From Aurantiacibacter sediminis (GTDB lineage: Bacteria > Pseudomonadota > Alphaproteobacteria > Sphingomonadales > Sphingomonadaceae), in assembly GCF_016019885.1 (NCBI RefSeq), contig NZ_JAEANY010000001.1, positions 744,001 through 808,000 on the forward strand: a stretch of DNA of 64,000 nucleotides. Direction: 5' to 3'. Both the position numbers and the translations under genes were made by a program. The number at the start of each line of letters is the position of its first letter. Position 1 is the first letter of the stretch. Of the stretch, positions 3,183-55,402 are shown piece by piece. The notes beneath the pieces are model-generated. The model was not told the DNA's origin. It was given only the letters and a program-made list of their open reading frames with translations, and ran no database searches.

Positions 3183-5744
3183 CTAGCTTTTCAGGTCCGC
3201 GACGATTTTTTCGAGATCGGATTTGGCGTAAGGTTTCTGGATGACGCCGCGCGCTTCCGTGCGGGAAAGCTTCTCCATCGCTTCGCCATACCCGGTGACA
3301 AACCAGAACGGGATGCCGCGCTCGCTCAGAGCCTGCGCGACAGGCTCACTGGTTTCGTCTCCCAGATTGAAGTCGAGCATGGCAAAAGCGGGAGAGCTGC
3401 TTCCCAGCACATCGAGGGCCGAAGCGCAGCTGGCGGCGACATTGATATTGGCAAAGCCCATGTCGGACAGCATTTCTTCTGCGTCCATGGCGATGATCAT
3501 GCTGTCTTCCACGACCAGCACGCCGTCTCGCCGATCCGATTTGCTCACCCGATAGGCTCCCTTATTATCATTGGCAGCATCGTCTGCATCTTCCTCTGCT
3601 TCATTTTCCGAAGGTTCAACCAGATTGGATGGGATGATGAAATCGGCCTCTACACCTGACAATTCGTAACGAACATCCGCGCTCCCTTTGAGCTCAAAGG
3701 GAATCGATTTCTGGATTATCGTAGTGCCAAAACCGCGCCGCTCTGGGGCCTTGACCGGAGGCCCGCCAATTTCGCGCCAGTGGATTTCCAAATCGGTATG
3801 GCGATTAAATTCCAGCCCGATTTCCAAATGCCCCTTGCGATCGCACAGGCAGCCATATTTGGCCGAATTGGTCATCATCTCGTGGATCACGAGGGCCATC
3901 ACGGTGAAGGCTTCGGGCGAAATCAGCGCGTCCGGCCCGGTGATAATCACCCGGTCGACCTTTCCTGACAGATAGGCTTCGGCCTCCGCCAGAATAAGCT
4001 CTTTCAGCGAAGCGGGAGACCATTGCTTGCGGGTAATCTGATCGTGCGCCAGTGCCAACGCGCGAATGCGCCCGCCGACCATGTCTGCGAACTGGCCAAT
4101 GTCGTTCGCTTCGCTCTTGCTTTGCCCAATCAGGCTGCGGATCAGCGTCAGAATATTGCGCACGCGGTGATTGAGCTCGGCGATCAGCAGTTCCTGTCGC
4201 TCCTGCGCGCGGGTGCGTTCCTGCATCTGCTCGTCAGTGATGCGCAGGATGACTTCGAGCAGCGTAACGCGCAGGTTTTCTGCAATCAGCAGTTCTTCTT
4301 CGGTCCAGGGTGAGGATTTTCCGCTGACTTCTTCCTTCCACGCCGCAAAGCTTTCGCGCGGGGTCAGCCGGTCGCCATCTGGGCCCGTTTGCACAGGCTT
4401 TTGCGGATTTCCGGCCCATGTCACTACCCGCGCCATTTCCCGCCGCCACAGCACGACATAATCGCGGGGCCGACGGGAGACAGGAATGATCAGCGCGCCC
4501 GTTGCCTTATCGGCAAAAGCTGCCGCGGCTGGAATGATCCCGGCAAGCGCATCATTGTGAACAAGACTGCCGGTAGAGGACGTGTTGAGCGAAGGAATGA
4601 TGGCCGCAAATTCGCTCTCGCTCGGCGCATGGCCGCGCGAGGTATATTCGCCATCGACATAGGCGCTCATCCCGTCATGCGGAATGATCTTCTCGATCGA
4701 ATCTTCGATCAAGCCGAGATTCTTCGACAGCGAACCACCGCCAACCAGCACGCTCATCAGCTTTTCGTGCAGGCTGTGGGCTTGATCGCGCACCTTGTGC
4801 CCTGCCGAAGCGATGGCGAGATCAAGCTGCATGGAGAACAGCTGTGAAAACAATTCGGCCATGGTGCGAACCGGGAAAGGCAGGACTTTCGCCGAGTAAT
4901 TGTGACAGGCAAACAGGCCCCACAATTTGCCACGCACGACAATGGATACGCTCACGCTCGCTTTCACACCCATGTTGTGCAGATATTGGATGTGGATCGG
5001 TGACACCGAGCGCAGCGTGCTCATGGACAGATCGATCGGCGCGCCGTCTAGCGTTGTTGCGGGCTCGATCGGAACAGGCGTTGCATCGACATCGCTGATG
5101 ATGCGGAACAGGTTGCGCAGATAGAGCTGGCGGGCCTGTTTGGGAATGTCGCTCGCCGGATAGCGCAGGCCGTGGAAGGCATCGAGTTCGCGTTCTTTCG
5201 CTTCGGCAATCACTTCACCGCTTTCATCGGGATGGAAGCGGTAGACCATGACGCGATCGAAGCCGAGCAGGGTCTTGAGCTCCTTCGCGGCGGCCTCGCA
5301 CAGCTCTGGGATGGTCGACATGCGCTCAAGCCGGCTCATGACAGGACGCAGCGTGCTTGTTTGCTGGCTCGCGCCGTCACGTGTCGTCGGCTCCAGCTCG
5401 ATCACGATATAGGTGCCGGTGACATGCACCGCGACATCGAAAATGCGATTATCGTGGAGCAGATCCACACCGAAGATGCGCTCGACCTCGTCCATTTCAC
5501 GGGCGTGCGCAACGCGTTCACGAAGTGTGGCGAGCGCATCGGCGCTCAGATGGTCGGAGAGCCGATCTCCGATGGCGATGGAGCTGCGCGGACTCAGCAG
5601 TTCATCTAGATTGGCCGAACGAAAGGCGACATTCCAATCGGCGGTAACAGCGATCAGAGCACCGAAGTCCTGAATATGGCCGAGCTGGTGGATCGGCTCC
5701 CGATCGCAGCTGGTCAGATCGACTGGTTGCGAGTGAACATTCAT
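3183..5744 (-). CDS. bphP: Bacteriophytochrome hybrid histidine kinase (PAS-GAF-PHY-HWE kinase-REC)
   Basis: An 853-residue red/far-red photoreceptor. The biliverdin-attaching Cys is at residue 13 in LTSCDREPIH, followed by the PAS core. The GAF domain has YRFHPDESGEVIAE and RYPASDIP, and the PHY tongue has WAGNPQKP and TPRESFAAW. The kinase is of the HWE class: ELNHRVRN at about residue 512 with its phospho-accepting His, HEMMTNSAKYG as N-box and IHWREIGG. A C-terminal receiver (VLVVEDS, phospho-acceptor in AMLDFNLGD, Lys in IQKPYAK) occupies the last 120 residues, so this is a hybrid kinase. It overlaps the heme oxygenase gene by 4 bases, giving a self-sufficient chromophore-photoreceptor operon. 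The output partner is not in the window. Confidence 0.93.
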   Translation of the reverse strand: MNVHSQPVDLTSCDREPIHQLGHIQDFGALIAVTADWNVAFRSANLDELLSPRSSIAIGDRLSDHLSADALATLRERVAHAREMDEVERIFGVDLLHDNRIFDVAVHVTGTYIVIELEPTTRDGASQQTSTLRPVMSRLERMSTIPELCEAAAKELKTLLGFDRVMVYRFHPDESGEVIAEAKERELDAFHGLRYPASDIPKQARQLYLRNLFRIISDVDATPVPIEPATTLDGAPIDLSMSTLRSVSPIHIQYLHNMGVKASVSVSIVVRGKLWGLFACHNYSAKVLPFPVRTMAELFSQLFSMQLDLAIASAGHKVRDQAHSLHEKLMSVLVGGGSLSKNLGLIEDSIEKIIPHDGMSAYVDGEYTSRGHAPSESEFAAIIPSLNTSSTGSLVHNDALAGIIPAAAAFADKATGALIIPVSRRPRDYVVLWRREMARVVTWAGNPQKPVQTGPDGDRLTPRESFAAWKEEVSGKSSPWTEEELLIAENLRVTLLEVILRITDEQMQERTRAQERQELLIAELNHRVRNILTLIRSLIGQSKSEANDIGQFADMVGGRIRALALAHDQITRKQWSPASLKELILAEAEAYLSGKVDRVIITGPDALISPEAFTVMALVIHEMMTNSAKYGCLCDRKGHLEIGLEFNRHTDLEIHWREIGGPPVKAPERRGFGTTIIQKSIPFELKGSADVRYELSGVEADFIIPSNLVEPSENEAEEDADDAANDNKGAYRVSKSDRRDGVLVVEDSMIIAMDAEEMLSDMGFANINVAASCASALDVLGSSSPAFAMLDFNLGDETSEPVAQALSERGIPFWFVTGYGEAMEKLSRTEARGVIQKPYAKSDLEKIVADLKS

Positions 5745-6304
5745 GCGGCCGCTTTGCTTTCTGCCTGCTCGGCAAAGATGGTCAAAAAGTGAGCAAAAAC
5801 CGATGAAGCAGCGGTGATCGCAGGTTGCGCATGGACTTTGGACATCGGGCGGTCAAGCTGCGGGCGTAGGCTGCGCCAGAATTGTCGCATTGTTTCATCC
5901 GCGAGGAAGCTGTCCGGCAGTCCTGATGACGCATCTTTGAGTGTTTTCAGCATCATGCGATTGCCCAGGTGCGACCCGGCGATGGCCCATGCCAAGCCGA
6001 TCGGATCGCTGCTTTTCGGCAGCTCGAACCGCAGGGAGGGTGCCGGGACCGACCGACCCATGGCGCTGAGATCAGCAGCGATCAGAAGGGCGACCTGAGG
6101 AGGAGAAAAGTCGGACGGACAGTCCCGCGCGACCCACTCCTCTATCGGCAGGCGCGCACAATATTGACGCGTCAGAAAGCGGGCATAGCTCTCTGCATCG
6201 GTCAGTTCATCAGCGTCGGTCGTCGCATCAAGGGCGGCGTGGTGCTTTGCCGTTTCCTGTCGCAACAAAAGCCGCAAAGTGGTGGTATGGTCCGTGCCGG
6301 ACAA
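5741..6304 (-). CDS. bphO: Biliverdin-producing heme oxygenase
   Basis: A 187-residue alpha-helical heme oxygenase that would open heme to biliverdin, the bacteriophytochrome chromophore. LRQETAKHHAALD near the N-terminus carries the proximal heme His region; a Gly-containing distal helix is likely at AIAGSHLGNRM. The stop overlaps the bphP start in an ATGA arrangement, so translation is probably coupled. The first in-frame ATG would give a 57-residue Cys-containing extension that does not look like the family. I chose TTG at 6304 because AGGAG lies 9 bases upstream and the length then matches bacterial BphO proteins. A DUF2721 gene is divergent to it. Confidence 0.85.
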   Translation of the reverse strand: MSGTDHTTTLRLLLRQETAKHHAALDATTDADELTDAESYARFLTRQYCARLPIEEWVARDCPSDFSPPQVALLIAADLSAMGRSVPAPSLRFELPKSSDPIGLAWAIAGSHLGNRMMLKTLKDASSGLPDSFLADETMRQFWRSLRPQLDRPMSKVHAQPAITAASSVFAHFLTIFAEQAESKAAA

Positions 6305-6432
6305 CTCTTCTCTCTCCTGCACGGCACACTTGCACTGGAAACCTGAATTAGCGACCTTATACGCAAATATGCCCAAGCATGGGACACAAGCTGACTGCAC
6401 CGGAAAAGTCCAGCAAAATTCGGAACTTCCAT

Positions 6433-6900
6433 ATGATTCAGACAATCGAATCCGGCGGAATGATCGCCCAGACAATCCAGTTGGCGTTGGCGCCCGTCTT
6501 CGTGCTTGTCGCTATCGGAACGATCATCGCCACGTTGACCCAGCGGCTTGGCCGTGTCGTCGATCGCAGCCGCGAGCTGCAGGCGCTACATGCAAAGACC
6601 GAGGGCGCGGAGCATGACATGGTCGTGCGCGAAATTCGCCAGCTTGACCGCCGGATCGATCTCATCAGCAGCGCGCTGAGGGTCCTTGTGCAATCGGCGC
6701 TGGCTATCGGGGTCACCGTGGTGCTGCTATTTGCAGAGGAGTTCGCGCATATCGGGCTCAATCCGATAGCGGCAGGCACTTTCATTCTCGCGATCGGACT
6801 GCTGATGTGGGCGCTGGTACTGTTTTTGCGCGAAACACGCGAAGCGACCGAAGCCCTTCGCATTCCGGAAAGCTATCTGGAGAAAGAGCGCAAGCTCTGA
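6433..6900 (+). CDS. DUF2721 family membrane protein
   Basis: About 155 residues with three predicted membrane helices. The first spans IQLALAPVFVLVAIGTIIATL, followed by the family hallmark TQRLGRVVDRSRELQ and then two C-terminal helices (residues about 85-105 and 110-130). The family has no established function. The start is uncertain: ATG 6433 is called, while ATG 6379 would add 18 residues and neither has a clear ribosome site. The gene is divergent to bphO, sharing a short upstream region, and converges on the PHA-granule-region protein with 4 bases between stops. Confidence 0.75.
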   Translation: MIQTIESGGMIAQTIQLALAPVFVLVAIGTIIATLTQRLGRVVDRSRELQALHAKTEGAEHDMVVREIRQLDRRIDLISSALRVLVQSALAIGVTVVLLFAEEFAHIGLNPIAAGTFILAIGLLMWALVLFLRETREATEALRIPESYLEKERKL

Positions 6901-17883: not shown

Positions 17884-19407
17884 TTAATACTCGTTCGGCT
17901 CTTCAGGCGTCTCCACCGTGTGCGTGTGTCCGGCATCCTTCTCGCCCTTCGCGAGCTTGAACACCACGCCCGAAAGCAGCAGCAGCGCGATCAGGTTTGG
18001 CACCACCATCGATCCGTTGGAGATGTCTCCGAGACGCCAGACGAAGTCCGACTTCTGGCTGGCGCCGACCACGATGATCAGGCACCAGAAAACGCGCCAT
18101 GCAATATGCAGCTTTTTCTCGCCTGCGCGTGTCGAGCCCGGGATGCGATCATACAGGAAAGTGATAGCTCGTTCGCCGTAATAGCTCCACGTCAGCAGGG
18201 TCGTGAAAACAAACAGGATCAGCACAAGGCTGACGATGATCGTGCCGATCGGCGTCCCCGCAATTTCGAAAGGAAGCGCCGTGCCGAATGATGTCGCAGT
18301 CATGGAGAAAGGCTCCATCGCGGTCTGCCAGGTGTAGCTGACGATTTCGGTGCTTCCCGTTTCACCACCGACCTGGAAACTGCCCTGCACAGTCAGGATC
18401 ACCAGCGCCGTCATGGTGCACACAACGATAGTGTCGATGAACGTGCCGAGCATCGCCATGCGGCCCTGCTGTTCCGGGTCATTGGTCTGCGCGACAGCGT
18501 GAGCGATCGGGGTCGAACCCTGGCCTGCCTCGTTGGAGAACAGGCCGCGAGCAACACCTGCGCGAATGGCCAGGATCATCAGCGCCCCTGCGAAGCCGCC
18601 CGTTGCCGCTGCCGGATTGAACGCGCTGTAGAAGATGAGGCCGAAAGTCTCAGGGATCAGCGGCGCATTCATCAGCAACACGATCAACGCGATGATGAGG
18701 TAAAGGCCAGCCATGAAGGGAATGACCTTTTCCGCCACGCTGCCGATCGATTTAATGCCGCCGATGATCACCGCGAACACCGCGATGGCGACGATGATGC
18801 CGCCGACAATCTCCGTGATCCCGAAAAGCTCTTTCAGGCCGTCGGCAACGGCATTGGCCTGAATGGCATTGCCGGTGACCATCGCCGAAAACAGCAGAAG
18901 GATACAGAAGATGATTGCCAGCCAGGCATACTTCGGACCGAGCCCCATCATGATGTAGGTCATCGGGCCCCCGCGATAGACACCGTCCGACGTCTTCTCA
19001 CGAAAGCGAATGGCCAGCGAGCCCTCGGCAAAGGCAAGCGCCATGCCGACCAGCGCCGTGATCCACATCCAGAAGATCGCCCCCGGGCCGCCCAGCGCGA
19101 TCGCCGAGGCGACGCCGGCGAGGTTACCCGTACCGACCTGGCCTGAAAGCGCTGTCGAAAGCGCGGCAAAGGGTGAGATCTCGCCTTCGCCTTCGCTTTT
19201 ACGGCCTTTGAACAGGCCCTTGAAAGCGCTACCCAGTTTCAGGATCGGGTAAAAGCGCAGGCCGATCATGATGTAAAGCCCGCCACCCAGCAGCAGGAGC
19301 GCTAGCGGCGGAAAAGGCAGTATTGCCTCGCCGCCCCAGGAGCCGCCCCACAGGAAATCGGCAATATTCGTGACCAGCTCCAGCGCTGGATCGTTCGTGG
19401 CAGACAT
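17884..19407 (-). CDS. Alanine/glycine:cation symporter (AGCS family)
   Basis: A 507-residue sodium-coupled amino-acid carrier with about eleven membrane helices. Family motifs include GQVGTGNLAGVASAIALGGPGAIFWMW at about residues 90-117, AIRFREKTSDGVYRGGPMTYI, and GVARGLFSNEAGQGSTPIAHA, the conserved N-E-A-G-Q-G substrate/cation loop. Uptake of alanine or glycine with Na+ into the cytoplasm is expected. ATG 19407 is preferred over an upstream in-frame ATG at 19602: it has AGGGG about 10 bases before it and the extension is not hydrophobic. A Na+-coupled carrier near a probable Na+-pumping rhodopsin is a suggestive neighbour. Confidence 0.9.
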   Translation of the reverse strand: MSATNDPALELVTNIADFLWGGSWGGEAILPFPPLALLLLGGGLYIMIGLRFYPILKLGSAFKGLFKGRKSEGEGEISPFAALSTALSGQVGTGNLAGVASAIALGGPGAIFWMWITALVGMALAFAEGSLAIRFREKTSDGVYRGGPMTYIMMGLGPKYAWLAIIFCILLLFSAMVTGNAIQANAVADGLKELFGITEIVGGIIVAIAVFAVIIGGIKSIGSVAEKVIPFMAGLYLIIALIVLLMNAPLIPETFGLIFYSAFNPAAATGGFAGALMILAIRAGVARGLFSNEAGQGSTPIAHAVAQTNDPEQQGRMAMLGTFIDTIVVCTMTALVILTVQGSFQVGGETGSTEIVSYTWQTAMEPFSMTATSFGTALPFEIAGTPIGTIIVSLVLILFVFTTLLTWSYYGERAITFLYDRIPGSTRAGEKKLHIAWRVFWCLIIVVGASQKSDFVWRLGDISNGSMVVPNLIALLLLSGVVFKLAKGEKDAGHTHTVETPEEPNEY

Positions 19408-19540
19408 TAGCGAAATCCCCTCGCGTCCCTCAAGAATTATGCGCGCCTTGCTATCGGCGGCGAGCGGCCATGCATAGCCCCCATGTGAAAATTGCGCCGG
19501 ATAGCTGGAAGATTCTCTGCGCTGAGCCCATTTCCCACTC

Positions 19541-19569
19541 TTGCCAAGGCGCAGGCACGCGCCTAGATA
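19541..19569 (+). promoter_or_regulatory. Probable sigma-70 promoter of secE-nusG
   Basis: TTGCCA at 19541-19546, a 17-base spacer and TAGATA at 19564-19569, about 120 bases before secE. It lies in the 280-base intergenic region between the divergent alanine symporter gene and secE. Confidence 0.5.
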
Positions 19570-19687
19570 GCCAATCGTCTTTCCGACATTAGTGATCTTC
19601 AAGCCCCTCCCGGACCTAGCCCGGGGCGGCGAGAGACCCTACCCGGAAGGCGCGAAACAGTTTTTGAATAGCGGAAAGAGCGCCATC

Positions 19688-20509: not shown

Positions 20510-21877
20510 CTACCCGATATGGATATGCGCCGAGCCTTCGCAGTCGGGCGCATGCTTGGGGGCCATCAGGAAATAGGCGAGGAATAGCGGGCTGACGCGG
20601 CCTGCGAACATCAGCGCCATCACGATGGCCTGACCGACCCGGTCGAGCGCACCCGTTGCGCCTTGGCTGAGCCCGACGGTGCCAAAGGCGCTGACCGCTT
20701 CGAACATCAGCGCTTCGAACCCCGCATCCTGCGTCAGCATAAGCGCGAAGACGCCGGTCACCACGATCATGCCCGAAGCGCACAGCGCGGCGAGCGCGGC
20801 GAACAGTTTCTCGCGCGTGATCGTGTGGCCGAAAACGCTCGGCTCCCGGTGGTGGCGGAAGAAAGCGATGGTGGCGAGCAGCACGATGGCTGCCGTCGTC
20901 ACTTTCACCCCGCCGCCCGTCGAGCCGACGCCTGCGCCGATGAACATGAGCACGGTGGATGCAAAACCGGTCTCCTGCCGCATCGCCCCGAAATCGAGCG
21001 TGGCAAAGCCGGCGGTGCGCGTCGTGGCGGATTGAAAAAGGGCGGCGACAAGCCTCTCCCCGTCATCGGCGAGGCCGCCCAGCGTCGCAGGATTGCTCCA
21101 TTCGGTCGCGGCAAACATCAGCATGCCTGCTGCAAGCAGGACGAGCGTAGAGGCCAACATCAGACGCGAATGCACCGATAAGCCTTTACCGCTCCGAAGA
21201 TTGCCCAGCTCCAGCAGCACCAGCCAGCCCAGCCCGCCCATGATGAAAAGCGCGGCGAGCGGAAGCGTGACTTGCGGCAAATCAGTGTAATCCTGGAAAC
21301 TGTTCCCTTGCAGGTCGAAGCCCGCATTGTTGAACGCGGCAATTGAATGGAAGACGCTGCGCCAAACGCCATACCAGCCTTCTTGCGGGACCCAATGCAA
21401 CGCAAGGATGGCAGCGCCCACTGTTTGCACAATCAATGCGACGAGGATCACTTTACGCGCGATTTTTCCGATCCCGCGAACATTGGGTCGCCCAAGCTCG
21501 GTTTGCAGCAGCGATACCTTTGCCCCGCCGTCATTCTCATTGAGGAACGCGATGAGCGGGTAAGCGAAAACGATGAGGCCGAGCCCGCCGACCTGCATCA
21601 GCACTGCGATCACCGCCTCGCCGAAAAGCGTATAGCTTTCCCCGGTCGCAACCACAGTAAGTCCGGTCACGGTCGTCGCGCTGACCGAGGTGAAAAACGC
21701 ATCGCCCAGATCGACCGGCTGCGATTGGGCGAAAGGCATTGAAAGCAACAATGTGCCGATCGTGATGGCCGTAAGATAAAGCGCGCAAAGCGCCACGGGC
21801 GGCGACATATTTGCCAGTCCGGCCGCCTCTTCTTTCGAGACGTCCGACGCCTCTTTATCTGTGTCGCCTGTCGCCAT
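20510..21877 (-). CDS. trkH: TrkH family potassium uptake protein
   Basis: 455 residues, the channel-like membrane subunit of Trk/Ktr potassium uptake. Four pore repeats are visible: SATTVTGLTVVATGESYT, AFNNAGFDLQG, ATTRTAGFATLDFGAM and AFGTVGLSQGATG, each with the filter-loop Gly. GVGSTGGGVKVTT precedes the intracellular gating loop. The regulatory TrkA/KtrA partner is not in the window. ATG 21877 is preferred to 21934 because the extension is polar and lacks a ribosome site, but this is not certain. The gene is divergent to the rhodopsin gene, so the two share a 208-base upstream region; both concern monovalent cations. Confidence 0.9.
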   Translation of the reverse strand: MATGDTDKEASDVSKEEAAGLANMSPPVALCALYLTAITIGTLLLSMPFAQSQPVDLGDAFFTSVSATTVTGLTVVATGESYTLFGEAVIAVLMQVGGLGLIVFAYPLIAFLNENDGGAKVSLLQTELGRPNVRGIGKIARKVILVALIVQTVGAAILALHWVPQEGWYGVWRSVFHSIAAFNNAGFDLQGNSFQDYTDLPQVTLPLAALFIMGGLGWLVLLELGNLRSGKGLSVHSRLMLASTLVLLAAGMLMFAATEWSNPATLGGLADDGERLVAALFQSATTRTAGFATLDFGAMRQETGFASTVLMFIGAGVGSTGGGVKVTTAAIVLLATIAFFRHHREPSVFGHTITREKLFAALAALCASGMIVVTGVFALMLTQDAGFEALMFEAVSAFGTVGLSQGATGALDRVGQAIVMALMFAGRVSPLFLAYFLMAPKHAPDCEGSAHIHIG

Positions 21878-21973
21878 GTGTCGGCTATTCAATTGAGCGT
21901 TCTCGTTATTGTTCCGGTGCCGGGCACCGACCATTTCCCGTAGTCAGGCCCCCAAATTTCTCGGCACTCTTTC

Positions 21974-22036
21974 CGCCCGCATGCGTTTGCAGACCGATAA
22001 CCGACCGGAAATCCAGTCGTCCAAACGCATCGGGCG
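21974..22036 (+). repeat. Interrupted inverted repeat in the rhodopsin leader
   Basis: The arm at 21974-21989 (CGCCCG, one bulged C, ATGCGTTTG) is complementary to 22022-22036 (CAAACGCAT, CGGGCG), giving 15 paired bases around a 32-base loop. It ends 49 bases before the rhodopsin ATG, so it could fold in the mRNA leader or bind a regulator. A second palindrome, CGGTGCC-G-GGCACCG, lies at 21915-21929. Confidence 0.55.
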
Positions 22037-22085
22037 GGGGCATCTGGCAGCTTGATCGCAATGCGACTGAAAAGGGGAACGCGCT

Positions 22086-22985
22086 ATGCCGACAATTGAG
22101 AATTTCGTGGAGATGGCCGTCTGGCAATATGACGTCGTCCGCCACGCTTTCGCCTTTACCGTCGCGGTGTTCGCGGCCGGTCTCGTCTATTTTGCGATGA
22201 CTGCATACCAGACCGCGCCTGCCTATCGCGCGACTTCGATTATCTCCGCCGTCGTGATGGTCTCGGCCGCTCTCGAAATTGGCCAGCTGTGGATGCTGTG
22301 GAATGCGAGCTTCGACTTCAATCCGGAGACGCAGATGTTTGCGGTCGTCGATGGAGAGCGTTTCTCCAACGGCTACAGATACATGAACTGGATGATCGAC
22401 GTGCCGATGTTGATGACGCAATTGGTCGTCGTTGCAGGCTTTGCGGGCGCTGCCCTGTTCCGCAAATGGGCGCTCCTGACCTTCACCGGTATCGCCATGA
22501 TCCTGACCGGCTATGTCGGCCAGTATTACGAGCCTGCTGCTGCCGGCATCCCCGGCTATGAAGGCGGTGAGTGGCTGTGGATCTGGGGCGCGATCAGCAC
22601 CGTCTTCATGATCTGGATGATTATGATCCTCTCGGGAGCGGTCCGCAATATTCAGGGTGAGCATAGCGATGCGGTGCGCAAGGGCCTCGTCCAGTGCTTC
22701 TGGTTCCTCGTCATCACATGGGCCATCTACCCGATCGCCTATATGTGGCCGGTGGTCGATTCCTCGGCCAATGGCGTGGTCGTTCGCCAGACGCTCTACA
22801 CCATCGCCGATGTCACTTCGAAGCTGGTCTTCGGCGTGATGCTGAGCCAGGTGGCCCTGCGCCGCTCGGCAGAGCTGGGCTATCGCAATGCAGCCTTCTC
22901 GATGATGGACCGCACGCCCAGTTCGGATATGATCGCGGCTGAAGATCGCATCGCCGGACAGGTGACGGAAACCAAGACGCGCTGA
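22086..22985 (+). CDS. NDQ-type microbial rhodopsin, probable light-driven sodium pump
   Basis: A 299-residue seven-helix retinal protein. Helix C reads [16 protein letters not shown], giving Asn101, Asp105 and Gln112 at the positions that are D-T-E in proton-pumping proteorhodopsin. N-D-Q is the signature of sodium-pumping rhodopsins such as KR2. Helix G reads [12 protein letters not shown] with Asp242 and the retinal Schiff-base Lys246. Leu109 at the spectral-tuning position suggests green absorption. AAGGGGA lies about 8 bases before the ATG. The C-terminal tail (after about residue 262) is polar and long. No carotenoid or retinal-forming gene (blh, crt) is in the window. Neighbours are trkH (divergent) and a CPBP protease (convergent). 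Confidence 0.94.
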
Positions 22986-22991
22986 TTGCTC

Positions 22992-23016
22992 GGCCTGCGG
23001 AATAATTCTGCGGGCC
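22992..23016. terminator. Hairpin between convergent rhodopsin and CPBP genes
   Basis: GGCCTGCGGAAT and ATTCTGCGGGCC pair over 12 bases (two wobble pairs) around a one-base centre. Only a weak T-rich tail (AGTATTTC) follows, so termination efficiency is uncertain. Confidence 0.5.
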
Positions 23017-23027
23017 AGTATTTCGCC

Positions 23028-23852
23028 TTAGACAGCAAACCATCCCATGGCGTCTGCGTAAAACAGGGCCATGGCGATGGTGTCTACGGCGGCATGGGCA
23101 ATGATGCAGGCCCACAGATTGCCCTTTTGCTGCATGCGCAGCCAGCCGAGGAACAGGCCGACCGTGCCCGTTACCACCACTCCGCCCCAGCCTTGATAAG
23201 CGTGCGGCAGGCCGAACAGGACGGCCTGGATGACGATCACCAGCCATGGTTTGCCGCGCAGCCCAGATACGCGGGCGAGGCGATCCATCAGGAACCCGCG
23301 ATAGAGCAATTCTTCGCCCGTGCCCGCCGCCAGCCATGCCACGCCCACGACCCATAGTGCGAACATCATCGGGCTTTCGATGACCATATTGAGCACCAGG
23401 CTGGCATCGGGCATGCCGAGGCCGATCGCCTCGACGGCCGCGCCGACAAGGCCGAAAATCAGGAAAATCACGGCGGTCGCCACCGCCGCCAAGGCCAGCG
23501 TTTTGCCCCAGCCGCTCGGCGGCGCGGTAAGCGTCCATGCCTCTAAGACGCGACCCTCGCGCCGCAGCCACAGGAATGCGACGATTAGCCCGAGCGTCAT
23601 GCCCACGACCACGGTCGACCATGTGACGAAAGAGCTTAGCTCCGGTTCACCTTCGGCTCCGCTTGCAGCATATTCGAAAAGCGACGGAAGCGCGGGCAGG
23701 GCGCTGCCGAAGAAGTAGACAAAGCCGACCGTTATGATTTGGGCGAGAAGCAGGCCCCAGCCGATGGTTTCGAGCGAAGGTGGGGGGAACGTCCTCCGGC
23801 TGCGCGCTGTCACGTCTCTGCGATCGTCAAAAACATCTGCCGGATTTGTCAT
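23028..23852 (-). CDS. CPBP family intramembrane metalloprotease
   Basis: 274 residues, about seven membrane helices. The three CPBP (Abi/CAAX-like) motifs are present: GTGEELLYRGFLMDRL with the Glu-Glu and Arg, VLFGLPHAYQGWGG with FxxxH, and IIAHAAVDTIAM with the third metal or catalytic His-Asp. The substrate is unknown; members process prenylated proteins in eukaryotes and bacteriocin-related or other membrane substrates in bacteria. The gene converges on the rhodopsin gene with a hairpin between. Its start region faces the 425-base leader of rplK. There is no obvious partner gene. Confidence 0.88.
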   Translation of the reverse strand: MTNPADVFDDRRDVTARSRRTFPPPSLETIGWGLLLAQIITVGFVYFFGSALPALPSLFEYAASGAEGEPELSSFVTWSTVVVGMTLGLIVAFLWLRREGRVLEAWTLTAPPSGWGKTLALAAVATAVIFLIFGLVGAAVEAIGLGMPDASLVLNMVIESPMMFALWVVGVAWLAAGTGEELLYRGFLMDRLARVSGLRGKPWLVIVIQAVLFGLPHAYQGWGGVVVTGTVGLFLGWLRMQQKGNLWACIIAHAAVDTIAMALFYADAMGWFAV

Positions 23853-50098: not shown

Positions 50099-50160
50099 GC
50101 TCACCGGCAATCCGGCTGCGGCCTGATGCGATATTTTGGATCGAAATGAGGGGTTCCCCG

Positions 50161-52890
50161 ATGATCACCACTGGCAAGAAGCTGGCGGCCCTGCTTCTCC
50201 TGTCCACCGCGCTCACCATACCGGGCGCGGCTTTTGCGCAAGATACGCAGCTTCCGCCGCAGGATGTCGACCCGACGCCGCCGGAAGACCTGAGCACGCC
50301 GCAGGACGATGACCTGCAGGATGAGGACCTGCAGGACGAAGACGAGCAGGTCGACGAATCCGACATCTCGATCCCGGGCGGAGCGATCATCGTAACGGGC
50401 CGGATCAATCGCGATCCAACCCAGAGCTCCAGCCAGGTTGTCAGTGTCCTTTCGACCGAGCAGATTGCCCGTACGGGTGAAGGCGACATCGCAGGCGCGC
50501 TTGGCCGCGTGACCGGCCTCTCGGTCCAGGGTCAGGGTTTTGTGTATGTCCGCGGTCTGGGCGATCGCTACTCGCTCGCCCTGTTGAACGGCCTCCCGCT
50601 GCCTTCGCCCCAGCCTCTCAGCCGCGTTGTTCCGCTCGACATCTTTCCGACCAATGTGGTCGCATCCAGCCTGGTGCAGAAAACCTATTCGGCGAACTTC
50701 CCGGGCGAATTCGGTGGGGGTGTGATCAACCTCACCACGCGCGCCGTGCCTGATGAAAGCTTCCTCACGATTGGCGGCGGCATCAGCGGGAATAGCGAGA
50801 CGACGTTCCAGCCGGGTCTTTCCTATTACGGTTCGGATTTCGACTGGTTCGGCTTCGATGACGGCACGCGCGATGTGCCGCCCGCGCTGCAAACCTATTT
50901 CGACAGCGGCCTGCAGCTGAGCGACATTCCGCTCGATGACAGCCAGAATTTTGACGGCGCGCCTGTCACGCAGACGGCAATCGGACAGCAGCTTGGCGAT
51001 CCGAACCTCATCCTGCTGCAACGCATTGGCGATATTCCGGCCAATTGGTCTGCCAGCCTGACAGCGGGCACGGCGGTCGATGTGGGTTCCGACGGACAGC
51101 TCGGCGTGGTCTTTACAGGATCGATCAGCAATCAATGGCGCACACGCGACATTATCTCGCAGAGCATTCTGGCCGACTTCTCGCTGGACAATGACTTCCG
51201 CGATGTGGTGACGGATAACCGCATTCTTGCCAACGCCATGCTCGGCATCGGCCTTGAAATCGGCGATCATCGCTTCCGCTTCACCAACCTCTTCATTCGC
51301 GACTCGCTGAAGCAGGCGCGGCTTTCGGTCGGTGAAGATTTCCAGGACGATGACAGCATCCAGCAGACCCAGACGGCCTGGTTCGAGCGCCAGCTGATCG
51401 ACAGCCAGCTCGTCGCTGAACTTGAATTCGGTGATCTCTCGCTGGATCTGCGCGGCGGCTATGCCCGTACCGATCGTGAAGCGCCTTACGAATACACATT
51501 CACCTATGTCCGGGACAATTCCTCGGGCGAATTCGGCGATCGTTTCATCAACGTGCTCGATCGCCAGACGGGTGACGCGGCAGTCGTGTTCTCTGACTTG
51601 CAGGAAGAATTGTGGTCCGGCGGTGCGGACGTCAGCTATCCGATTTTCGATAGCTTCGTGGTGACCGTAGGCGGTGCTTACACGGATACTCAGCGTTTCT
51701 CCGAACGCCGCGAGTTCCTGTTCAACGCTCCCACAAGCCTGCCCGACGGCGTCGGCGCGCTGCGGCCTGACTTGCTTCTCGGCAATGCCATTATCGAATT
51801 CTTCGACATCGGCCTCATCGAATCGACGCAGTCCGATCCGGCTTTCGATGCCGCGCTCGAAATTTGGGCGGGCTATGGCAAGATCAATTGGGAGCCGGTT
51901 CTCGGCCTCAGCATCGACGCTGGTGTCCGTTACGAAGATGCCGAGCAGAGCGTAAATCCGGCGCAGGTCTTCGACGTTGCACCTGTCTCTTCGGCCTCGA
52001 CATTGCTCGAAAACAGCTATTGGTTGCCTGCCGCCACGGTCACTTGGGAGCCGATTGAAGATCTGCAGATCCGCGCCAACGCAAGCCGCACTATCGCGCG
52101 CCCGCAATTCCGCGAATTGATTTTCCAGACCTATTACGATCCGGAAACCAACCGCCAGTTCAACGGCAACCCGCTGCTCATCGATAGCGAGCTGACCAAT
52201 TACGAAGTGCGCGTCGAATATTACATGGGCGGGCCGGATCGCGTTTCGGTTGCCGGTTTCTACAAGGATATCGAGAATCCGATCGAGGCATTCTCGAGCT
52301 TCTCCGACAACCAGCAGCTGACCAGCTTCGCCAACGCGCCGAGCGCCACGCTCTACGGTATCGAAGCCGATCTCGCCTATACGATCGACCTCCTCAATTG
52401 GGGCGGCTGGTTCGAGAGCAAGCAGATCGCGCTGTTTGCCAACTATACCTGGACCCAATCGGACATCGCGGTGGACGCTGCTGATGTGACGCAGCTGTTC
52501 CCAGGCGGCCCCGTGCCGGCGACGAACCTGTTCGTCGACGGCGTTCCGCTAACGGGACAATCCGATCACCTCGCAAACTTCCAGGTCAGCCTGGAAGACG
52601 TCGATCAATTGCAGCAATTCACCTTGCTGATGAATTATGGCAGCGAACGCGTGACCAGTCGCGGGACCGCCGGATTGCCGGACATCGTCGAAGATCCAGG
52701 CTTGAGAGTCGATTTCGTCTACCGCCAGGGTTTCGATCTTTTCGGAAGCGAAGCCGAGCTCAAGCTCGAAGCACGCAATATCTTCGGCCAGGACAATGAA
52801 GAGTTCCAGACCAACGGTGTCGATCGCGTGGAGATCAACAGCTTCGATATCGGCACAACATTTGGGGCATCGCTTTCGATCACTTTCTGA
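50161..52890 (+). CDS. TonB-dependent receptor (partner of surface lipoprotein)
   Basis: 909 residues. The signal peptide is MITTGKKLAALLLLSTALTI to about FAQ. An acidic repeat-like stretch (DDDLQDEDLQDEDEQVDE) follows at about residues 50-70. The plug contains VVSVLSTEQIARTGEGDIAGALGRVTGLSVQGQGFVYVRGLGDRYSLALLNGLPLPSPQPLSRVVPLDIFPTNVV, and the barrel ends in GASLSITF. ATG 50161 is preferred to 50146 because AGGGG lies 8 bases before it. The LPSPQPLSRVVPLDIFPT segment marks a receptor subfamily shared with this lipoprotein type. The ligand is unknown; a phosphorus compound is only suggested by the PHO-like promoter and the regulator downstream. Confidence 0.88.
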   Translation: MITTGKKLAALLLLSTALTIPGAAFAQDTQLPPQDVDPTPPEDLSTPQDDDLQDEDLQDEDEQVDESDISIPGGAIIVTGRINRDPTQSSSQVVSVLSTEQIARTGEGDIAGALGRVTGLSVQGQGFVYVRGLGDRYSLALLNGLPLPSPQPLSRVVPLDIFPTNVVASSLVQKTYSANFPGEFGGGVINLTTRAVPDESFLTIGGGISGNSETTFQPGLSYYGSDFDWFGFDDGTRDVPPALQTYFDSGLQLSDIPLDDSQNFDGAPVTQTAIGQQLGDPNLILLQRIGDIPANWSASLTAGTAVDVGSDGQLGVVFTGSISNQWRTRDIISQSILADFSLDNDFRDVVTDNRILANAMLGIGLEIGDHRFRFTNLFIRDSLKQARLSVGEDFQDDDSIQQTQTAWFERQLIDSQLVAELEFGDLSLDLRGGYARTDREAPYEYTFTYVRDNSSGEFGDRFINVLDRQTGDAAVVFSDLQEELWSGGADVSYPIFDSFVVTVGGAYTDTQRFSERREFLFNAPTSLPDGVGALRPDLLLGNAIIEFFDIGLIESTQSDPAFDAALEIWAGYGKINWEPVLGLSIDAGVRYEDAEQSVNPAQVFDVAPVSSASTLLENSYWLPAATVTWEPIEDLQIRANASRTIARPQFRELIFQTYYDPETNRQFNGNPLLIDSELTNYEVRVEYYMGGPDRVSVAGFYKDIENPIEAFSSFSDNQQLTSFANAPSATLYGIEADLAYTIDLLNWGGWFESKQIALFANYTWTQSDIAVDAADVTQLFPGGPVPATNLFVDGVPLTGQSDHLANFQVSLEDVDQLQQFTLLMNYGSERVTSRGTAGLPDIVEDPGLRVDFVYRQGFDLFGSEAELKLEARNIFGQDNEEFQTNGVDRVEINSFDIGTTFGASLSITF

Positions 52891-52913
52891 TCGCCAACGT
52901 CCAAACGCGTTAC

Positions 52914-52955
52914 AAAAAGACCCGCCGCGCTCCAAAAAGCGCGGCGGGTCTTTTT
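52914..52955. terminator. Strong bidirectional terminator
   Basis: An 18-base perfect inverted repeat (52914-52931 with 52938-52955) whose arms end in AAAAA and TTTTT. It lies between the convergent TonB receptor and response-regulator genes. Confidence 0.93.
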
Positions 52956-52986
52956 CTGGAATCACTGGATGACTAGCGATGCCAGT

Positions 52987-53661
52987 TCAGGGGCGATCGA
53001 AGACGTAACCCCTGCCGTGAACCGTGCGCAGCAAGTGTTCTGCGCCGACCTTTCGCAAACCAGCGCGCAGGCGCTTGATCCAAACATCGACCGTGCGCAG
53101 ATATTCCGGATCGCCCTCTTTGCCGAGTGCATCGATCAGCTGCTGGCGCGAAAATATCCGCTCGGGATTTTCGGCGAGATAGCGCAGCACGCGAAACTCG
53201 TTTGGTCGCAATTCGATGCGCTCGCCATTCCAGCGTGCAAGCTCGCTATTTACGAAGATTTCCAGGTCGCCATGCACGATCTGGCGCTCTGTGGCCGATC
53301 GACCTGCGCCGTCGTCTAATGCGAGAACCCGGTCCAGCATGGCCTGCCGATCAAGCGGGGCCACGGCATAGTCATCGGCGCCTGCTTTCAACGCGCGGCG
53401 GCGATCCTCTGCATCGTCTTCATCGAGAACAAGCGTGATATGCGCATCTTTAGTGCGCTCATCAGCGCGAAGACGGCGCACCATTTCGAGGCCTGAAAGG
53501 TCGTCCATCACCCAATCCACAAAGGCCCATACAGAACCTTCGATCAGCAGTGTGGGCCCTTGCGGGGAGAGATGCGCAAAGATGAATTCGGTTTCGCCGT
53601 TGGCGAAAGACGAGAATTGCGCGGCGGCACTATCGGTGCTGAAAATCGTAACGCGGTCCAT
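52987..53661 (-). CDS. PhoB-like response regulator with degenerate receiver
   Basis: About 224 residues. The C-terminal winged helix is PhoB-like: IELRPNEFRVLRYLAENPERIFSRQQLIDAL, then RTVDVWIKRLRAGLRK and LLRTVHGRGYVFD. The receiver keeps an Asp at residue 49 (FVDWVMDD) and Asp10. But the switch Thr is replaced (LVLDEDD) and the conserved Lys is Ala (DDYAVAPLD), so normal phosphorylation-dependent switching is doubtful. The start is ATG 53661; ATG 53673, four codons up, has AGG too close to it. No histidine kinase is adjacent. It converges on the receptor gene, and a PHO-like repeat precedes it, fitting autoregulation. Confidence 0.85.
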   Translation of the reverse strand: MDRVTIFSTDSAAAQFSSFANGETEFIFAHLSPQGPTLLIEGSVWAFVDWVMDDLSGLEMVRRLRADERTKDAHITLVLDEDDAEDRRRALKAGADDYAVAPLDRQAMLDRVLALDDGAGRSATERQIVHGDLEIFVNSELARWNGERIELRPNEFRVLRYLAENPERIFSRQQLIDALGKEGDPEYLRTVDVWIKRLRAGLRKVGAEHLLRTVHGRGYVFDRP

Positions 53662-53700
53662 CGCTCTCGCCATCCTGAGATACGAGAGGTGTCGTGCCGT

Positions 53701-53724
53701 CTTTATTTGACTCGCTTATGACAA
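53701..53724 (-). promoter_or_regulatory. PHO-box-like repeat upstream of the response-regulator gene
   Basis: On the minus strand unit TGTCATAAGCG (53723-53713) is followed directly by AGTCAAATAAA (53712-53702). The CAAATAAAG core is shared with the element at 48376-48408. It lies 40 bases before the start codon. Confidence 0.45.
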
Positions 53725-53761
53725 TTTCCGCGCAAATCGCGGGGGTTGTGCGGAAATTATC

Positions 53762-55270
53762 TCAGGTCGCTGTTGCCGGGCAATATCGCGCCAGATACTC
53801 GCCATGCGAAGGCATGTGCTGAACGAGGAAGCGGATGGATTTCTCGATCTCGTCGAGTTCCTTCTTCGTCTCCGTCGGATCGAGCGTTGCCGCCATCGCG
53901 TTATGCCCCTGCATCGATATGCCTTGCCCCATCATCACCGCAGCCCAGCTGGTTTCAGTGAAAAGCTCGTCCTCCTCGCGGAAGATTTGGCCGTTCAGTT
54001 TGAACAATTCCATCTTCTCGGTGAGGCTGTCAGGCACACTCATCGTGCGGCAGTAGTTCCAGAATTCGGAATCGTCCCTGTCGGTGGCATGATAATGCAG
54101 GATCAGGAAATCGCGAATTTTCTCATATTCCTTATTGGTCAGCCGGTTGAAGGACCGGGCCTGCGTTTCGGTCACCTCGTCGAGCGATAGCAGCGCGATC
54201 AGCTTGTTAATGCCGGTGTTGATCAGGTGGATCGATGTCGATTCCAGCGGCTCCATGAAGCCTGCTGCAAGGCCAAGTGCGACGACATTCTTGTTCCAGA
54301 ATTTCTTGCGCCGTCCCGTCACGAAGCGCAGGTGGTTGGGATCGGCTGTCGGCTTGCCGGCCATATGCTCGATCAGGATATCGGTCGCTTCATCGGCTTC
54401 CATAAAGGCATCGCAATAGACATGGCCATTACCATTTCGGTGCTGCAGCGGGACTTGCCACTGCCAGCCCGCCGAATGCGCTGTGGCGCGAGTAAAGGGC
54501 GGAGCAGGGCTGCCATCATCGCGATTGCAAGGTAGGGCGACCGCGCGGTTACACGGAAGCCAATGCGTCCATTCTTCGTATCCGGTCTCCAACGCCTGCT
54601 CGATTAAAAGCCCGCGGAAGCCCGAACAATCGACAAAGAAATCGCCTTTGATTTCCTGTCCGCTTTCCAGCGTGACCGATGAAACGAAGCCGCTCTCGCT
54701 GTCGAGTTGGACGTCGCTGATCTTACCTTCCTGCCGCACAACGCCGCGCTTTTCTGCGTATTTACGAAGGAAGGCGGCATAGGCCGTCGCATTGATATGG
54801 TAAGCGTAATTGATCGGCGGCAGATCGTCGCGCCGCATATCGTCGGTCCGCGCAAATTTGCCGAAATAGGCGGCCATGGTCTCGGCATTGAAAACCTGGA
54901 TCGGGCGATTGTCGCCGGTCGATTGCTGATGATGCCAGATGTGGTGAAAGCTCAGACCACCCATTTCATAGCCATAATTGCCGAAGGGGTGGATATAGCT
55001 GTCGCCAAGCTTGCCCCAATTCACAAATTGGATGCCGAGCTTGAAAGAACCCTGCACGGCAGAAAGCATCTCCGCTTCATCGATTTCAAGCAGGCGCTGA
55101 AAATCGACAAATGGCGGGATCGTCGCTTCGCCAACACCGACGGTGCCGATCACTTCCGATTCGACCAAGGTGATCCCAAGCTCACGCCCTTCGCGCAGCC
55201 GTGAAAGCGCCGCCGCCGCCATCCAGCCGGCGGTGCCACCACCGACAATTACGATTTGATCAATAGCCAT
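53762..55270 (-). CDS. Tryptophan-halogenase-family flavoprotein
   Basis: 502 residues. The FAD motif IVIVGGGTAGWMAAAAL is at residues 6-22, and GVGEATIPPF matches the flavin-binding strap. The halogenase fingerprint WxWxIP appears as WQWQVP near residue 270, and a Lys in GSFKLGIQFVNW is at the catalytic-Lys position. Members beside TonB receptors in carbohydrate loci of Proteobacteria are common but their reaction is unproven; chlorination of free tryptophan is unlikely here. ATG 55270 (MAIDQIVIV) is the natural start. It is divergent to the large receptor gene across 263 bases containing two LacI-type palindromes, so both may be regulated together. Confidence 0.88.
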   Translation of the reverse strand: MAIDQIVIVGGGTAGWMAAAALSRLREGRELGITLVESEVIGTVGVGEATIPPFVDFQRLLEIDEAEMLSAVQGSFKLGIQFVNWGKLGDSYIHPFGNYGYEMGGLSFHHIWHHQQSTGDNRPIQVFNAETMAAYFGKFARTDDMRRDDLPPINYAYHINATAYAAFLRKYAEKRGVVRQEGKISDVQLDSESGFVSSVTLESGQEIKGDFFVDCSGFRGLLIEQALETGYEEWTHWLPCNRAVALPCNRDDGSPAPPFTRATAHSAGWQWQVPLQHRNGNGHVYCDAFMEADEATDILIEHMAGKPTADPNHLRFVTGRRKKFWNKNVVALGLAAGFMEPLESTSIHLINTGINKLIALLSLDEVTETQARSFNRLTNKEYEKIRDFLILHYHATDRDDSEFWNYCRTMSVPDSLTEKMELFKLNGQIFREEDELFTETSWAAVMMGQGISMQGHNAMAATLDPTETKKELDEIEKSIRFLVQHMPSHGEYLARYCPATAT

Positions 55271-55402
55271 AATCGCCCCACTCCCTCGGGCAGTCAGTTC
55301 CGATATTTCGCGCAATCTATCCGTTCATGCCGCCAATCGGAAGGGTGGGCCTTTGGCGGTGGAGGCAGATAATTGCAAAAATGTTACACCAAGCATGGGT
55401 GA

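Follow-up and report, generated by a model that had tools for sequence, protein, structure and literature searches.

NDQ rhodopsins have been divided into two subgroups according to one residue: Subgroup 1, for example KR2 of Krokinobacter eikastus, has Leu or Ile at the position of KR2 Leu74, while Subgroup 2 has Glu (PMC11006869). The traits of Subgroup 2, the ErNaR type, include a spectrum and a pumping activity with little pH dependence and a pentameric state. ErNaR of Erythrobacter sp. HL-111 (PDB 8QLE, 8QLF, 8QQZ, 8QR0) is described as moving Na+ outward, with a negligible proton current and little effect of pH, and the bond between its E64 and D105 as very short (PMC11006869). Several light-driven systems can also share one cell. 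NDQ and NTQ rhodopsins are reported together in Nonlabens sp. YIK11, which adds a DTE proton pump (PMC4831467). According to PMC13043013, bacteriochlorophyll and rhodopsin in one cell are already known, and the Erythrobacter MAG E1-EBD-20 holds a photosynthesis gene cluster, a Na-pumping rhodopsin and additionally a xanthorhodopsin proton pump; its Na-pumping rhodopsin was "not further considered" in that paper.

We analyzed a 64,000 nucleotide stretch of the genome of Aurantiacibacter sediminis (hereafter the window), which contains an NDQ rhodopsin gene (NaR). Like YIK11, this genome combines NDQ with NTQ, but it has reaction-centre genes in place of a DTE pump. As in E1-EBD-20, photosynthesis genes and a sodium-pump rhodopsin stand in one genome, whereas the rhodopsins here are NDQ and NTQ only (PF01036). 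By its sequence the window protein is a further member of an already described, small and recently reported sodium-pump subgroup. The interest lies in its setting, a probably photosynthetic cell with only these two rhodopsins and with a KtrB-like gene next to NaR.

Residues and subgroup of the window rhodopsin

The rhodopsin gene and its functional codons were located as follows.

22086..22985, plus strand: NDQ rhodopsin (NaR), 299 aa, ATG start
22275..22277, plus strand: Glu64 codon, helix B; additional Schiff-base counterion position defining Subgroup 2 (PMC11006869)
22386..22421, plus strand: helix C motif; Asn101 22386-22388, Asp105 22398-22400, Gln112 22419-22421
22587..22589, plus strand: Gly168 codon, aligned with xanthorhodopsin Gly156 (carotenoid-antenna position)
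22809..22823, plus strand: helix G; Asp242 22809-22811, retinal-binding Lys246 22821-22823

The composition of the open reading frame is coding-like (GC3 0.78, GC2 0.44), and a chance reading frame was excluded because an intact orthologue, 91% identical and in the same gene order, is present in a second genome of the genus (G015). The protein matches PF01036 with an E-value of 6.2e-32 (111.3 bits, cut-off 24.6). In a search of solved structures the closest protein was 8qle (E 5.7e-117, residues 1-271 without gaps), which is ErNaR (PMC11006869), followed by the Nonlabens chloride pumps (E ~1e-46) and KR2 (E ~1e-42). The window protein and ErNaR are identical at 180 of 271 residues (66%); 34% of the aligned residues differ. 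A simple scan of positions 21800-23200 revealed no sigma-70-like promoter upstream of the gene. The single promoter-like site lay inside the rhodopsin gene (shuffles 0.5, sd 1.0), and terminator-like sites numbered 0 (shuffles 0.9, sd 0.8).

Alignment with KR2 placed Asn101, Asp105 and Gln112 opposite N112, D116 and Q123, and Asp242 and Lys246 opposite D251 and K255, exactly where the original prediction had put them. That prediction had named D-T-E or N-T-Q at these positions as evidence to the contrary. The alignment gives NDQ, and the DTE proton-pump and the NTQ chloride-pump readings were both rejected. Besides NDQ, the protein shares with KR2 the equivalents of D251, K255, R109, E11, E160 and R243. 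It differs in having Glu64, Leu68 and Glu91 where KR2 has Leu74, Gln78 and Asp102, and overall similarity to KR2 is far lower than to ErNaR. On the cytoplasmic side, KR2 N61 and G263 correspond to S51 and S254, and to A and S in ErNaR. Assignment to the KR2 type was ruled out because Glu64 stands in place of Leu74; this Glu, which the original prediction had not mentioned, is the residue that defines Subgroup 2. All 17 functional positions compared with ErNaR (5, 19, 20, 60, 64, 68, 98, 101, 102, 105, 112, 149, 168, 234, 242, 245 and 246) are identical. Gly168 is non-specific, since KR2 and Nonlabens ClR likewise have Gly there.

In a 29-row tree the window protein grouped with ErNaR (support 100/99). 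Their clade has six NDQ rows, two of which, ErNaR and the protein of genome G913, are identical over 271 residues. KR2 joined Nonlabens ClR (87/80), both being long branches and KR2 a single one. Neither a single NDQ clade (p-AU 0.368) nor a single NTQ clade (p-AU 0.278) was rejected, and Subgroup 2 may or may not have arisen independently among NTQ rhodopsins. Motif, residue set and clade thus support the predicted light-driven sodium pump of the NDQ class. The gene product is very probably a retinal-binding protein of the ErNaR subgroup that pumps Na+ outward in the light.

The shared residues allow a mechanism to be proposed by analogy with ErNaR and KR2. Light would isomerise the retinal on Lys246, the Schiff-base proton would move to Asp105, and Na+ would enter from the cytoplasm and leave past Arg98 and the Glu5-Glu149-Arg234 triad. 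D105, tied to E64, would act as the main counterion. Glu64 should hold Asp105 deprotonated, and we propose that pumping would therefore be nearly independent of pH, with Na+ pumping expected even at mildly acid pH. In its native cell the protein might instead pump protons, alone or together with Na+: KR2 is reported to pump protons without Na+, and protons and Na+ compete for uptake in ErNaR (PMC11006869). We consider this very improbable, as the currents of ErNaR, with its 17 identical positions, were immeasurably small without intracellular Na+, pH 5 included (PMC11006869), and as the DTE motif is absent from the window rhodopsin. In the cell, a sodium pump of this kind would carry Na+ out and thereby raise the membrane potential, while the proton gradient would come from the reaction centre.

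A KtrB-like gene beside the rhodopsin gene

The genes around NaR are the following.

17884-19602, minus strand: AGCS symporter; secE, nusG and the ktrB-like gene lie between it and the rhodopsin gene
20510..21934, minus strand: KtrB-like K+ transporter gene (PF02386), divergent, 151 bases from the rhodopsin ORF
23028..23852, minus strand: CPBP/Rce1-like membrane protease gene, convergent neighbour of NaR, adjacent to NaR in G015 too

Uptake by the AGCS symporter may draw on the light-made Na+ gradient, as originally suggested. The gene at 20510-21934 had been taken for trkH. Its best solved relatives are KtrB proteins (E 1.2e-92, compared to 3.2e-4 for TrkH), so KtrB-like is the better description; PF02386 and TIGR00933 (300 bits, under the cut-off of 331) indicate the TrkH family only. 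The gene order in the window is secE-nusG, ktrB-like (minus), NaR (plus), CPBP protease (minus) and rplK-rplA, and that in G015 is the same but for one further large ORF after nusG. In genome G447 (locus L013) a KtrB-like gene is divergent to NaR (best KtrB E 1.6e-55), and the one in G340 follows NaR downstream with the same orientation. The KtrB-like proteins of G447 and G340 share 47% identity, and each is ~31% identical to that of the window. Four KtrB-like queries gave no match within 18 kb at NaR in G913. Over 271 residues the rhodopsin of this genome (L096:8742-9590) does not differ from ErNaR; G913 is therefore HL-111 or a very near relative. Altogether, NaR and a KtrB-like gene are adjacent in four of five NaR genomes, in three genomic settings, two orientations and two KtrB subfamilies. 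In the open-licence literature searched, no paper was found that treats a sodium-pumping rhodopsin together with trkH, and a search for KtrB with rhodopsin and light-driven sodium gave no KtrB paper among the matches listed. On the basis of gene order, the linkage of NaR and KtrB is the one possibly new element here.

What the adjacency means can be read in two ways. It may have arisen by chance from a gene that is mobile and patchy in its distribution, with no functional pair behind it, and we give this reading an even chance. The sample comprises five NaR genomes, NaR is rare (3 of 40 genomes in the genus), and no KtrB-like match lies within 18 kb in the genome that encodes ErNaR; on the other side stands the recurrence of the arrangement in different settings and orientations with KtrB-like subfamilies just ~31% identical. 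Alternatively, the two genes may serve a light-driven Na+/K+ exchange, in which Na+ export by NaR would charge the membrane and K+ would enter through KtrB in return, keeping the ion balance under changing salinity. The potential made by the pump could be used by the neighbouring KtrB-like protein for K+ uptake, as gene order suggests. Na+ is reported to activate KtrAB of B. subtilis (PMC11078986), and together with the adjacency this makes the exchange a reasonable idea, for which gene order is the basis. However, in B. subtilis the activation acts through binding to KtrA and by intracellular Na+ (PMC11078986), which a Na+ exporter would lower, and G913 does without the neighbour. We therefore regard light-driven Na+/K+ exchange as possible but rather unlikely. 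In place of general energy supply, the recurring neighbourhood suggests Na+/K+ balance as a concrete physiological hypothesis.

Retinal supply and further light-related genes

The window's genome, given as 99.98% complete, encodes two rhodopsins by PF01036, one NDQ and one NTQ, the latter of the chloride-pump type by motif; the same search found no proton-pump rhodopsin. A blh-like gene lies three bases after the NTQ rhodopsin. It matches PF15461 weakly (28.1 bits, cut-off 28) and TIGR03753 with an E-value of 2.9e-15 (56.6 bits, under the cut-off of 95.25). The genes crtB, crtI and crtY (PF00494, PF01593, PF05834) are clustered at about G000:C6:890949-895352, G000 being the window's genome. 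The search of the genome for blh and crt genes, suggested along with the original prediction, thus yielded all three crt genes and a weak blh-like gene. The cell probably makes its own retinal via crtB, crtI and crtY and then the blh-like gene. The window itself contains no visible retinal gene, as had been noted, but the remark that the chromophore must come from elsewhere calls for correction: a source outside the cell is not needed because the genome has the crt genes and the blh-like gene.

Of 8 NTQ loci with long stretches, 5 have a blh-like gene next to the rhodopsin, namely those of G000, G015, G340, G391 (copy on C2) and G874, and 3 do not, namely those of G391 (C1 copy), G159 (C1 copy) and G369 (C1:2381638); other rhodopsin copies of G159 and G369 are outside this count. 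In L013, where NaR is alone, a blh-like gene lies ~6 kb downstream of NaR on the same strand. A pair of neighbouring genes that diverges from the NTQ rhodopsin looks similar across G000, G015 and G340. In G000 both encode DUF2254 membrane proteins (Pfam), and the pairs of G015 and G340 were matched by eye.

L042:10502-13167, L044:8799-11449 and L047:4900-7601: gene pair divergent from the NTQ rhodopsin
G000:C6:1026148-1029016 (L099:12148-15016): pufL, pufM, pufC

Owing to the presence of pufL, pufM and pufC, the organism is a potential aerobic anoxygenic phototroph. With reaction-centre genes, NDQ and NTQ in one genome, light could power H+ transport by the reaction centre, and that of Na+ and Cl- by the rhodopsins. 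The combination of NDQ, NTQ and a reaction centre without a proton-pump rhodopsin was not met among the matches listed from the open-licence literature searched. A division of the light work by ion can be imagined, in which the reaction centre would supply the proton gradient, the rhodopsins would move Na+ out and Cl- in, and NaR, genetically paired with KtrB, would take part in light-driven Na+/K+ exchange. As a whole this scheme is doubtful, and we hold it to be improbable. If true, NaR and KtrB would form a rhodopsin counterpart of the Na+/K+ pump. In this organism the role of NaRs in the cell could be studied alongside a second, independent proton source that runs on light.

The window also encodes a bacteriophytochrome-like histidine kinase (3183-6475, minus strand) with PAS_2, GAF, PHY, HWE_HK and response regulator domains. 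It adjoins a heme-oxygenase-like gene (weak, E 3.1e-6), and the two together point to a red-light sensor within the rhodopsin window. A TonB-dependent receptor gene is found near a tryptophan-halogenase family gene at 50146-55315.

Distribution of NaR, NTQ rhodopsins and reaction centres

Among 40 genomes of the genus, the NDQ protein occurs in three (G000; G015, 91% identical; G340, 82% identical) and NTQ in five (G000, G015, G340, G026 and G036). NTQ is therefore present in all three NaR genomes as against 5 of 40 (hypergeometric p 0.001, uncorrected for descent). The named relatives of NaR (L013 and ErNaR) belong to Erythrobacter. In the genus of G447, 3 of 114 genomes match P0001, namely G447 and G913 (NDQ, 66%) and G874 (NTQ). 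An obligate pair of NaR and NTQ was rejected, as NaR is alone in G447 (PF01036) and G913 has no second rhodopsin (P0001 search). NaR together with a reaction centre is likewise not a rule: it was found in two of four genomes (G000 and G447, as opposed to G015 and G340), G913 lying outside this test.

In an even draw of the family, 55 of 397 genomes match P0001, 24 of them with NTQ by motif; G000 and G340 are among these and each also has NDQ. Of the other 31 matching genomes, eight were read by motif (all DTE), and the 23 unread ones are 28 to 38% identical, short pieces aside. The Photo_RC cut-off was passed by 76 of 397 family genomes; both draws were assumed to contain the same genomes, as total and handles agree. 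A reaction centre is present in 9 of the 24 NTQ genomes compared to 76 of 397 overall (Fisher p 0.03). A general association of NTQ and reaction centre was discarded as weak, since seven of the nine co-occurring genomes come from one genus (g28).

In a draw of the class, 32 of 385 genomes match P0001. The 29 new loci gave 28 distinct sequences (two being identical), comprising 26 DTE and 2 DTQ, and three weak matches had no locus. Among 72,556 plasmid records three match at ~28-29% identity; these are matches by similarity, with motifs unread. Six genomes of g28 (G066, G159, G220, G268, G369 and G429) have four Photo_RC matches each, as well as NTQ rhodopsins; the four matches correspond to two separately placed pufLM-like pairs. 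Genome G145 has a second rhodopsin besides NTQ (L052:4178-4927); its motif is DTG, which is cited as another Na+-pumping group (PMC11006869).
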